Assembly (NCBI GenBank): GCA_013299115.1
Contig: JAAFKA010000001.1
Location: 1-64,000, forward strand
Direction of reading: 5' to 3'
DNA length: 64,000 bases
Source: Cytophagales bacterium
GTDB taxonomy: Bacteria; Bacteroidota; Bacteroidia; Cytophagales; Thermoflexibacteraceae
Shown: one piece after another, positions 21,434 through 38,321 of the stretch
How the letters are laid out: each line of letters starts with the position of its first letter
Position numbering within the stretch: the first letter of the stretch is position 1
Notes under the pieces: generated by a model
What the model saw: only the letters and a program-made list of their open reading frames with translations
Database searches by the model: none
Told to the model about the DNA's origin: nothing
Position numbers and translations under genes: made by a program

Positions 21434-21500
21434 AATTGTATCAATTAGCTTGTTTTCCCTACTCTGTTTAATAGGCTTTTCGGGTGTCGCCTTTACGTTA

Positions 21501-32422: not shown

Positions 32423-32454
32423 TTTGCAAACGACAAATAAAAATTGTATTTTTG
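32423..32454 (+). promoter_or_regulatory. promoter of the ncRNA candidate
   Basis: TTTG at 32423-32426 and TATTTTTG at 32447-32454, 20 bp apart, match the Bacteroidota -33/-7 pattern. No protein gene lies downstream on the plus strand. Confidence 0.6.
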
Positions 32455-32459
32455 TAGTT

Positions 32460-32573
32460 GAAAGGAAACCAAACCGTTTTGGACGTTGCAATGGACGACT
32501 TTTCTATGAAAAGGGACATACCATGTTGGTCGAATTTCTAAGGTCTTTTGTTAAAGCAAAAGACCTTATTTTT
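32460..32573 (+). ncRNA. candidate structured small RNA, ~114 nt
   Basis: A consensus promoter ends at 32454 and an intrinsic terminator at 32540-32567 closes the transcript; no convincing coding frame lies between. Predicted by eye: a closing helix GAAA/TTTC (32460-32463 with 32535-32538), a symmetric 4+4 internal loop, ACCAA/TTGGT (32468-32472 with 32526-32530), a large internal loop, ATGG/CCAT, and an apical hairpin CTTTTC-TAT-GAAAAG. GGA occurs repeatedly (GGAAACC, GGACG twice, GGGAC). The rod with a central bubble recalls 6S-type RNA, but that is only a resemblance. The terminator is convergent with the small nuclease gene at 32566. Confidence 0.5.
32540..32567 (+). terminator. intrinsic terminator of the ncRNA candidate
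   Basis: Perfect 11-bp stem AAGGTCTTTTG / CAAAAGACCTT with a 6-nt loop, followed by a tract of eight T residues. Confidence 0.85.
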
Positions 32574-33006
32574 TTATATAAATGGTACTAACAACCAAAC
32601 GGTTTTTCTTTCCCTTTTTCTTTACTATTCTAATTTCTAAAACCACAAAATGTGTATGCTGAAATTGTTTTTGAAATCTTAGTAATGGCTTTCCAGTAGC
32701 CCAAGAAACACCTATACTTTCTATTTTATCAGCATCTGTAATCACTTCAATTATTTTTGTAAAATCTATTTTGGTAATACCAACTTGTTGTAAATTCTTT
32801 TCTGTATAATCAGAATGTTTATTGACTGCGTGAATAATGCCATAACTATCCAATGAAATAAGAAAATCTATGAGTTCAAAACCTGTTGCTTTTTGTATTT
32901 TTTCTGCCAATGGGTTATCAACAACACCAATATCTATACTCCTAAATTCATTTGTGCCACTAAAAGCAAAATCGAATAAATTTTCTATTTCTTTAAAAAT
33001 ATCCAT
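32566..33006 (-). CDS. stand-alone barnase/EndoU/ColicinE5-RelE-like nuclease domain protein
   Basis: 146 residues. The C-terminal ~105 residues resemble the phage-barnase-EndoU-ColicinE5/D-RelE-like nuclease (PBECR) families: DFLISLDSYGIIHAVNKHSDYTE..., ITKIDFTKIIEVITDADKIESIG, then FVVLEIRIVKKKGKKNRLVVSTIYIKK. In that family the central His/Lys pair (HAVNKH) and the final Thr/Ser-x-Tyr are the likely active site. These domains usually cap phage structural proteins or polymorphic toxins; here the domain stands nearly alone after a ~45-residue N-terminus (GTNEFRSIDIGVVDNPLAEKI...). No immunity gene is evident. Its stop codon overlaps the convergent ncRNA terminator. The family call is by remembered pattern. 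Confidence 0.55.
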   Translation of the reverse strand: MDIFKEIENLFDFAFSGTNEFRSIDIGVVDNPLAEKIQKATGFELIDFLISLDSYGIIHAVNKHSDYTEKNLQQVGITKIDFTKIIEVITDADKIESIGVSWATGKPLLRFQKQFQHTHFVVLEIRIVKKKGKKNRLVVSTIYIKK

Positions 33007-33476
33007 TTAGTTTTTTTACAAAGAAAATTAAAATTATTTGAAGATATTGGTTTTAGATTACTAATTGTTTGGAAAAATGAATACACCTCGCACACAACAC
33101 GCACAACTTCTTGTGTTTGCTTTGTTGAGGTTGGTGTTAAGAGATTTTTTGGGCATGAGGGAGAATTCTGTTTAGTCTTTTTGATATTTTTTCATAATTT
33201 CCAATAAACCAACAAAATACTCTTTATCCTCAGCACAAGTTTTTTTGCTTGTCAAAAATTGACTAAAGTCAAATGCTATTAAGCTAAGGAAAAAACACTG
33301 TGCTGGGGGTTGCTACAACCCCAACGCACTTTCGGTTGTAGCACAGTGGCGAACTGCCGACCCAAAGCACCTTAGCCTATAGCATAGACTTTAGTCCAAT
33401 GCTACAGTGATTATTCATAAACTCTAAAGTTAGCAGTTATTTTTTTACTGTTCCCTGCTAACTATTTACTGAAAAA
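33007..33476. other. 470-bp intergenic region with repeats
   Basis: Holds a 110-bp repeat element at 33300-33409 (listed separately) and the phrase ATTATTCATAAACTCTAAA at 33411-33429, which recurs at 52271-52289. A 32-codon frame at 33077-33175 is too short and unrecognised to call. The upstream control of the minus-strand nuclease gene should lie in the first ~100 bp. Confidence 0.5.
33300..33409. repeat. composite intergenic repeat, copy 1
   Basis: Shares 26 identical bases with the element at 36645 (33306-33331 versus 36651-36676), containing the hairpin GGGGTTG-CTA-CAACCCC. Like that copy it ends in a CTAAAG-type palindrome (33381-33406, GACTTTAGTC then ..ATGCTAC). Confidence 0.65.
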
Positions 33477-36163: not shown

Positions 36164-36616
36164 CTACCCATTTTTCATCACAATTCCCTCGTGTGCCAAT
36201 TCCAAAGTCTCGACAGCCACCTCGTTTCCGTCTGATTTGAGGTCGGTGCTGGTGATTTTGGTAGGCCATGCATTGGTCAGAGTCCATGACATGGTAGGGG
36301 CGTCGGTTTCGTCGAGCAACTGAATGGTGATTTCCTGCCGTTTTATGGTATTCAGCTTAATTTCGTTGTACCAATCAAACAGTTTGTTATCACCCTTAAA
36401 AATACCTTTTTTCATGGTAATGTTGCTAAACTTCTTGATACCAGGCATCTTGATAGTCGAAAAGACTTTGCTATTGCCATGACGGTACTCAATAATTTGT
36501 GTTTCGGTATCCAAACCAGAAACTTCTTGAAAAGCTATTTCGCCTTTGTCGCCAAGTGTAACTTTGAAGTAAAACTTGGGCAAAGGCCAGTTCATGTCTT
36601 GTGCTTCGCCTGCCAT
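36164..36616 (-). CDS. contractile-tail inner tube protein (T4 gp19-like)
   Basis: 150 residues from the ATG at 36616 (MAGEAQDMNWPLPKFYFKVTLGD). The upstream 30 codons run through a repeat element and were excluded. Typical tube features: FKVTLGDKGEIAFQEVSGLDTETQIIEYRHG, then KKFSNITMKKGIFKGDNKLFDWYN, ITIQLLDETDAPTMSWTLTNAWPTKITSTDLKSDGNEVAVETLELAHEG. Stacked hexamers form the inner tube that the sheath drives outward. It directly follows the sheath gene on the same strand, separated by a 118-bp spacer containing a repeat. Length is normal for extracellular contractile injection systems. Confidence 0.9.
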   Translation of the reverse strand: MAGEAQDMNWPLPKFYFKVTLGDKGEIAFQEVSGLDTETQIIEYRHGNSKVFSTIKMPGIKKFSNITMKKGIFKGDNKLFDWYNEIKLNTIKRQEITIQLLDETDAPTMSWTLTNAWPTKITSTDLKSDGNEVAVETLELAHEGIVMKNG

Positions 36617-36644
36617 AATATTTTTGATTTTTGATTTATGAATT

Positions 36645-36733
36645 GTGTTAGGGGTTGCTACAACCCCAACGCACTTGCAGTTGTGAGCAACCGCAAGCAC
36701 GAACAAACTACGGACTAAAGTCCGTAGCTACAG
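36645..36733. repeat. composite intergenic repeat, copy 2
   Basis: 26 bases identical to copy 1 at 33306-33331, followed by the hairpin CTTGCAGTTG-TGAG-CAACCGCAAG and the CTAAAG-family palindrome at 36708-36731 (CGGACTAAAGTCCG, then TAGCTAC). It fills the gap between sheath and tube genes. Confidence 0.65.
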
Positions 36734-36734
36734 A

Positions 36735-38321
36735 TTAGGACTCTTGCATTTTTTGTTGGAAAGTTATCACAATAAACTCAGCAGGTCTTGATACAGCTAC
36801 TTTTATGGTGATGTTCATTTTGCCATCTAAAATGTCGGTTGGCGTCATGGTAGCCCCCAAACCTATCAAGACTTCAAAGGCTTCTTTTGGTGAGCCACCT
36901 ACCAAGCCTCCTTGTTTCCAAACATTGAGCAAAAAACCCTCGATAGTGCCTTGCACGTTGAGCCAGGTACTTGCCGTATTTGGCTCGAAAACAAAGGCTT
37001 TGGCTGCAATTTTGATAGACTGTTCTATATACATCAGGGTACGTCTTACGTTTACATACCGCCAATCTTGGCTGTTGCCGTCTAAGGTTCTTGCCCCCCA
37101 AACCACAGTACCTTCGCCTACAAAAGAACGGATAGCATTGACAGATTTACCTGTTAGGGTTACGTTGAGGTCTGCTTGGTCGTCGTGGGTCAAATTGACC
37201 GTAGGAGAAACTACGGCAGTCATGCTCACGTTGGCGGGTGCTTTCCACACGCCGCGTTGGGTGTCCACCATAGTATAAATACCCGCCATAGCTGCTGCGG
37301 GAGGCATCATATTGAGTTTGTTTCGCAAAGTTTGCAAAATCATTTTATAGGTAGGAAACAAAGCTACCAAAGTTTGCGACAATTTAGTTGGGTCTATTTT
37401 GTTTGCTACGTAGGTTGTAATTTTGTCTATCTCTGCATCTAAAGCTTCTTTCTTTTTAGTTTTCTTTGCTTTCTCATCCACTACATTTTGAGGGTCTGCT
37501 GTATTTGCGGTTATATCACCAATAGAAGCTGCTACTTCTGCTTTGAGTATTGTTACTAACTCAGCTTTATCTGCATCGAGAAAATTGGTAAAATCAACAT
37601 CATTGTTAGAGAAAATGCTGGTATTTAGCCAAGGATAATAAGCTGCCCCATAACTCAAAAAGTTATTGCCTACATTGCCCCTAAAAGTTTCAATCACATT
37701 AGTTTTGGTAGGTTTGTAACCATTATAGACATCGAACAAAGCAATTCTGCTCATCATTTTTCCACAATGGGCAAGCATTGTTTGGCAAACTTCCTGAAAA
37801 CCTGCATTATCGAGCAAAACTGCTTCGGGAATGAGCAACATGGTAGGCACAGTTTCGCCAATCAAAGGCTCTAACCCACCCAACAAATCTGCTTTGTTTA
37901 CATCTATTTTTCCTTGTTTATCGCCACCATAAGTACCCACAGAAACAATGTAGCAAGTGCCTCCGCCATTGCTATAAAACAGGCGTATAGCTTGTGCCAA
38001 AAAACAACGAGTTTTCTGGGCATCTGCACCTTCTTGCGTTAGTTTGTAATTATTGACCCCAGAAACAAATTCTGTTTCGGAGGAATTGGTGGCTGGTGCT
38101 ATCTCAAATAGTGCTTTGATAGAACCACCAAAGGTTTCGGCAAATTCTGCCAATGATGAAATACGGATAGGTTTGTTTAGCACTGATTTTCCGCCTTGAT
38201 TGGCTTTTTCTGTATAGCCAATGAATGCAGGCACAGCTGTAGGCACACCTACCACCGAACGGGGGAATGCGTCTTTCTCCTCGATATAAACTCCCGGAGT
38301 TCGCAAGTCTAATACTGCCAT
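36735..38321 (-). CDS. contractile-tail sheath protein
   Basis: 528 residues. N-terminus VLDLRTPGVYIEEKDAFPRSVVGVPTAVPAFIGYTEKA is the canonical sheath start. The C-terminal domain has IYTMVDTQRGVWKAPANVSM, DLNVTLTGKSVNAIRSFVGEGTVVWGARTLDG, DWRYVNVRRTLMYIEQSIKIAAKAFVFEPN, and ends IKVAVSRPAEFIVITFQQK, as in extracellular contractile injection systems and type VI subtype iv. The middle (~170-330) is a variable surface domain with a charged helix (KAKKTKKKEALDAEID). Contraction powers ejection of the tube. The rest of such a system (baseplate, spike, AAA+ ATPase) is not within reach on either side. Confidence 0.92.
   Translation of the reverse strand: MAVLDLRTPGVYIEEKDAFPRSVVGVPTAVPAFIGYTEKANQGGKSVLNKPIRISSLAEFAETFGGSIKALFEIAPATNSSETEFVSGVNNYKLTQEGADAQKTRCFLAQAIRLFYSNGGGTCYIVSVGTYGGDKQGKIDVNKADLLGGLEPLIGETVPTMLLIPEAVLLDNAGFQEVCQTMLAHCGKMMSRIALFDVYNGYKPTKTNVIETFRGNVGNNFLSYGAAYYPWLNTSIFSNNDVDFTNFLDADKAELVTILKAEVAASIGDITANTADPQNVVDEKAKKTKKKEALDAEIDKITTYVANKIDPTKLSQTLVALFPTYKMILQTLRNKLNMMPPAAAMAGIYTMVDTQRGVWKAPANVSMTAVVSPTVNLTHDDQADLNVTLTGKSVNAIRSFVGEGTVVWGARTLDGNSQDWRYVNVRRTLMYIEQSIKIAAKAFVFEPNTASTWLNVQGTIEGFLLNVWKQGGLVGGSPKEAFEVLIGLGATMTPTDILDGKMNITIKVAVSRPAEFIVITFQQKMQES

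Follow-up and report, generated by a model that had tools for sequence, protein, structure and literature searches.

A conserved structured RNA lying tail to tail with PBECR3 genes, a candidate antidote to a predicted BECR-fold nuclease

The window analysed here, a stretch of 64,000 nucleotides from a Cytophagales bacterium (contig JAAFKA010000001.1, positions 1 to 64,000), carries at positions 32460-32573 of its plus strand a member of an RNA family with a covarying structure and a near-universal tail-to-tail link with genes encoding the PBECR3 domain. As far as the libraries searched go, this RNA family is previously undescribed. We consider it likely that this RNA makes up one half of a two-gene toxin-antitoxin or immunity module, in which it would serve as an antidote that binds and blocks the PBECR3 nuclease directly.

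A small RNA with its own promoter, terminator and conserved fold

The promoter that an earlier note on this DNA had placed at 32423-32454 was confirmed, with a -33 element TTTG (32423-32426, plus strand) and a -7 element TATTTTTG (32447-32454) separated by a 20-nt spacer. Read from the sequence, this TTTG-N20-TAnnTTTG arrangement corresponds to the Bacteroidota housekeeping consensus, and TAnnTTTG occurs at the corresponding position in 18 of the 21 Bacteroidota relatives, pointing to a promoter of its own. From promoter and terminator, an RNA of about 115 nt is predicted (32460-32575, plus strand), and covariance models whose training set included the window sequence match it at 32464-32534. 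An intrinsic terminator, for which the scan returned one hit in the segment versus 0.2 expected from shuffles, is indeed present at 32539-32575, its size differing from the 11 bp and eight T residues first noted: a stem of 13 pairs (32539-32568) is followed by seven T residues (32569-32575). This T-run overlaps the stop and last codons of a convergent ORF (32566-33006, minus strand), and the strand opposite the U-run of the RNA thus reads as the stop and Lys codons of a basic C-terminus, an arrangement that recurs in most of the RNA-toxin pairs described below. No plus-strand gene lies between the RNA and this ORF, as already noticed, and the view that the segment lacks a convincing coding frame also stands, the small plus-strand frames being absent from the relatives, whose bodies differ. 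The idea of a structured RNA that stands alone, between a promoter and a terminator of its own, is thus supported; its transcription we infer.

The fold of the single sequence was of little help. The whole segment folds better than its shuffles (z -3.2), a gain owed to the terminator, and the RNA body without the terminator folds no better than shuffles (z -0.04); the fold of this one sequence is therefore no evidence, and for the structure we rely on the covariation seen between relatives. Blast comparisons with 19 relatives gave short matches only, the direct ones being promoters and terminators, and matches over query positions 20-60 revealed separate promoter-RNA-terminator units that have GTTTTGGACGTT in common directly after the RNA start. 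Searched across the order, the motif pattern mostly hit coding sequence by chance, and true members were separable only by promoter, closing stem (P1) and terminator taken together. N-padded hand alignments were used because MAFFT alone misaligned P1. With 11 members aligned in this way, P1 and the H1 hairpin contained 23 double-changed cells, versus 6.6 in shuffled alignments and at most 9 in slid ones. A first covariance model built from these 11 retrieved further members in genomes of the same GTDB family, and a second one added copies in the window's own genome as well as one in another family (G046). The final alignment of 22 members, which takes in copies from a Rhizobium phage and a UViG, contained 73 double-changed cells versus 26.4 shuffled and at most 29 slid. 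Placing P1 by hand inflates its pairing; guards against this are the slid controls, which are far lower, and those members that were found without recourse to P1. Both the homologues and the covariation that the earlier note had proposed to look for were thus found.

Covariation across the 22 members supports a nested three-way junction, which replaces the rod with a central open loop proposed earlier; the claim of a structured small RNA is upheld by the relatives and not by the body fold of the single sequence. Both sides change in each of the nine pairs of P1 and the three pairs of P2. H1 (CG-UUUYGGA-CG) hardly varies, being conserved from Bacteroidota to an Azospirillum plasmid. In the window, P1 pairs ACCAA (32468-32472) with UUGGU (32526-32530), both arms being assigned by P1 covariation in relatives, and may be extended by an outer segment, GAAA (32460-32463) with UUUC (32535-32538), suggested by the fold and by relatives with an interrupted P1. 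H1 occupies 32475-32485 as CG-UUUUGGA-CG, with a 12/12 match to the family motif and the conserved 7-nt loop. P2 is formed by AUGG (32491-32494) and CCAU (32521-32524), again assigned by covariation, and encloses the P3 hairpin CUUUU-cuaug-AAAAG (32499-32513), predicted from the fold and variable in sequence and length among relatives. The segment has no internal repeat, each locus holding a single unit. The family can be described as a real structured RNA with a variable closing stem P1, a short H1 hairpin with a conserved 7-nt loop and a second hairpin.

At both gathering and permissive thresholds, Rfam yielded no matching family for the segment or its relatives, the 6S-Flavo family (RF01685) named by the earlier note included, and the PyrR binding site (RF00515) reached 25.9 bits in the segment against a gathering score of 54 (E 0.087). 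A PyrR leader was considered on account of this weak match and of one RNA copy in G125 (L281, 4182-4252), which precedes a pyrR-like gene on the same strand and has a T-run directly after P1; this is a single case, and the idea was set aside. Three other candidates were dropped, none of them with an Rfam match: an attenuator or leader peptide, which would have no plus-strand gene to control, an integron attC site, for which the attC core consensus is missing, and a retron RNA, with no reverse transcriptase gene seen nearby. Elsewhere in the window, Rfam detected a DUF805b RNA motif above its gathering score (21456-21493, minus strand).

Association with genes ending in a PBECR3 domain

The convergent gene (32566-33006, minus strand), which the earlier note had not mentioned, encodes a protein of 146 aa whose only Pfam match is PBECR3 (PF18812; 46.6 bits for a cut-off of 30, E 3.8e-12), the match spanning 32566-32922 in a profile search of the genomes of the GTDB family. 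According to PMC5512222, the PBECR active site consists of a His in a helix and a Thr/Ser near the C-terminus. The window protein fits this description with H59, H64 and an ST near its end: two His are invariant in 15 of 15 PBECR3 sequences, and the C-terminal Thr/Ser is invariant in the 14 that are not frameshifted. A structure model built with three sequences (pLDDT 77) has helices followed by a four-strand sheet, and a structure search of the PDB gave weak matches, the best toxin being a Salmonella toxin-antitoxin protein (7vd7_A, E 0.087, prob 0.87). PADLOC, NCBIfam and PHROGs held no model matching the protein. The gene is predicted to encode an RNase of the BECR (RelE/colicin-like) fold.

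The link between the two genes was assessed starting from the protein. Within the GTDB family, whose 13 genomes were searched, PF18812 matched 15 genes, and the genome of the window accounts for eight. These genes were found by the profile and not by the RNA, the opposite strand being read at each 3' end. All 15 have the RNA on the opposite strand just beyond their stop codon, one copy (G002:C36) running into masked bases, and only about half of these RNAs had been caught by the covariance models alone. Across the order, the RNA was found at seven more stand-alone PBECR3 genes and, as a weak match, at one polyvalent gene with a C-terminal PBECR3 domain. Outside the order, it adjoins PBECR3 in another class of Bacteroidota (G663), in a UViG, in the Rhizobium phage RHph_N28_2, where the gene beside it lies between portal and head genes, and, with P1 as a perfect 9-bp stem, on an Azospirillum lipoferum plasmid. 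In total, 27 of 27 genes with an ORF-ending PBECR3 domain, from at least two phyla, have the antisense RNA, one as a weak match. Where PBECR3 is internal and other domains come after it (G127, G545, G577 and G1027), no RNA was seen at the end of the ORF. Under a fixed rule requiring at least 10 of 12 motif positions within the antisense 200 nt past the stop, 19 of 25 PBECR3 genes scored, as compared with 0 of 25 for each of the other three flanks of the same genes and 30 of 1233 control ORFs, a set drawn in part from loci chosen for the motif. The distance from motif to stop is 54-129 nt, and in most pairs the terminator of the RNA covers the final 3-44 nt of the ORF; in the C73 pair, a 28-nt gap separates the two. 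At G000:C34:227015-228868, a PBECR3 gene occurs in two identical copies at a distance of 1.5 kb, both of them accompanied by the same convergent RNA.

Copies of the RNA also occur away from the toxin. There is no PBECR3 neighbour at five copies in the genome of the window, nor at others in G005, G002 and G125; another faces the fragments of a broken PBECR3 gene (G003:C277), and the C73 toxin gene is frameshifted near its end. None of the 27 ORF-ending PBECR3 domains lacked the RNA. This asymmetry fits an antidote, as loss of a toxin would be tolerated and loss of its antidote would not. Among the copies without PBECR3, one converges on an MNT-HEPN toxin-antitoxin pair (L267, 3036-3962; G000:C11) and others on a DUF416 (L270) or HTH gene (L269). 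Two identical copies lie 2.6 kb apart (L265, 2448-2515 and 5089-5156; G000:C29) with near-identical flanks, in a cluster of small toxin-antitoxin-like genes; this would be either a segment that was duplicated or a mobile unit.

Across 23 pairs, the distances between RNAs are correlated with those between toxins, with Mantel values of r 0.27 (p 0.009) and r 0.33 (p 0.00015). No such correlation was seen in the seven pairs of the window's own genome (r 0.02), so cognate specificity is unsupported and the overall correlation may reflect shared descent. A pyruvate dehydrogenase gene neighbours the module in the window, and the RNA is absent around this gene in 80 other Bacteroidota contigs. An insertion in this lineage is thus probable, which is what one would expect of a mobile conflict system. 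Further along the window are an intergenic inverted-repeat stretch (33280-33400; GGGTTGCTACAACCC...GGTTGTAGCAC), probably a dispersed repeat with a look-alike in contig C67 (L168), and contractile-tail-like genes with tube- and sheath-like ORFs (36164-38321), possibly an injection system.

A proposed RNA antidote and competing explanations

In the mechanism we propose, the PBECR3 protein would act as a BECR-fold RNase on cellular RNA, and the RNA, running from a strong promoter of its own to a terminator that abuts the stop codon of the toxin, would fold into a three-way junction of closing stem P1, H1 and the P2/P3 hairpin. H1 would then present its nearly invariant UUUYGGA loop to the nuclease, which the RNA would bind directly and block in the manner of type III RNA antitoxins. 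Toxicity, direct binding and neutralisation are steps that we infer. A loop that stays constant while the stems vary points to recognition by a protein. The suggestion of a regulatory or protein-binding RNA made in the earlier note survives in its second form, protein binding being the leading idea, and is not supported in its 6S-like one.

Several other explanations have to be weighed against direct neutralisation. The RNA could work together with the nuclease, activating or directing the protein as a cofactor, a guide or a regulated substrate, which we regard as unlikely. Near-universal pairing and a conserved loop would suit any protein-RNA partnership, and BECR enzymes such as colicins D and E5 are established to act on RNA loops; however, the RNA is kept without the toxin and beside a broken toxin, never the reverse, and this direction of loss fits an antidote better. 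The tail-to-tail layout, with a terminator that in most pairs extends 3-44 nt into the end of the ORF, might instead suggest a type I-like antisense RNA that reduces expression of the toxin by pairing with its mRNA at the 3' end. Such a role seems quite improbable, as the overlap essentially amounts to the terminator and the poly-Lys codons and is missing in the C73 pair, the conserved loop and three-way junction fall outside it, and the orphan copies have no overlapping PBECR3 mRNA to act on. Taken together, the constant loop, the copies away from PBECR3 and the terminator-only overlap favour direct binding over both an antisense and a cofactor or guide function.

That several copies adjoin other genes (MNT-HEPN, DUF416, HTH) would be expected of a housekeeping or regulatory small RNA, 6S-like or other, standing beside PBECR3 by happenstance. 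This we hold to be very improbable: the RNA accompanies 27 of 27 ORF-ending PBECR3 genes in at least two phyla, chance is excluded, Rfam gave no match, and the RNA does not recur around pyruvate dehydrogenase in the 80 contigs. A functionless chance pairing of promoter and terminator, to which the single-sequence fold at shuffled level might point, is ruled out for practical purposes by the RNA family, its covariation and the genomic link.

Returning to direct neutralisation, the H1 loop may also hint at how the nuclease is blocked. In most members it fits the rule of an anticodon loop (pyrimidine, U, three bases, purine, A), and can be read as Y32 U33 ... R37 A38, that is, YU-NNN-RA within a 7-nt loop. 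Colicins D and E5, which belong to the same fold class, cut anticodon loops. A substrate-mimic antidote is therefore possible. As a tentative extension that we consider rather doubtful, the RNAs may form a phylum-crossing class of antidotes for BECR-fold nucleases, also carried by phages, in which an anticodon-loop look-alike would occupy the active site of a tRNA-cutting nuclease. Should this be true, it would define a new toxin-antitoxin type, with an antidote mimicking the substrate of the toxin, and phage-carried PBECR3 toxins would gain an RNA immunity factor.

Phages and mobile elements are known to carry PBECR nucleases. The conserved RNA found here beside each ORF-ending PBECR3 domain is a concrete candidate antidote, and its conserved loop a lead to the target of the nuclease.

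Relation to known RNA and toxin systems

A likeness to 6S-Flavo RNA (RF01685) lies in the similar length (108 model positions) and in being a transcript of its own in Bacteroidota. The two differ in architecture and in the link of the present RNA with a nuclease gene, and there is no match to the model; a search of the whole genome with RF01685 was also negative, but its control was equally silent. As in type I systems, the RNA stands on the strand opposite the toxin; in contrast to these systems, the overlap is limited to the extreme 3' end, the conserved structure falls outside the overlap, and the toxin is not a small hydrophobic peptide.

PBECR domains occur in phage polyvalent and MuF proteins and are predicted to be metal-independent RNases, and the PF18812 toxin half belongs to the same group. 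The paper that defines them deals with the protein alone, and its passages on PBECR name neither an RNA partner nor an immunity factor (PMC5512222). Our literature search on PBECR3 with RNA or on convergent RNA antitoxins, with most subscription papers and preprints outside its scope, returned nothing relevant. AbiF/RCd22 of C. difficile (abiF motif, RF03085) is another case in which a structured RNA motif regularly accompanies a single toxin family; there the RNA was shown to neutralise, both in cis and in trans, through direct contact with the protein (PMC12373285). Protein and RNA are both unrelated to those described here, AbiF being an Abi_2, ancestral Cas13-like protein, and RCd22, which contains the motif twice, is located upstream of its toxin on the same strand.

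The closest parallel is with type III systems (ToxIN, CptIN and TenpIN), in which the RNA is a repeat array with a pseudoknot, processed by the toxin and located upstream of the toxin on the same strand and co-transcribed with it from one promoter, with a terminator between RNA and toxin (PMC5086642). Both pair an RNA gene with an endoribonuclease gene, the RNase activity being predicted and the direct-binding antidote proposed in the present case, and both occur on phages, plasmids and chromosomes. The RNA described here differs in being one non-repeated three-way-junction unit, convergent with the toxin and under its own promoter instead of upstream in a bicistronic operon, and the toxin is a PF18812 PBECR3 protein of the BECR fold and not ToxN, CptN or TenpN. 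If the RNA is indeed an antidote, it would add a toxin fold and a gene layout that are both new for RNA antitoxins, and looking opposite the 3' end of toxin genes would be a simple way to find more such systems. The best reading is thus a type III-like module with a single-unit RNA, its own promoter, a convergent layout and a BECR-fold toxin.
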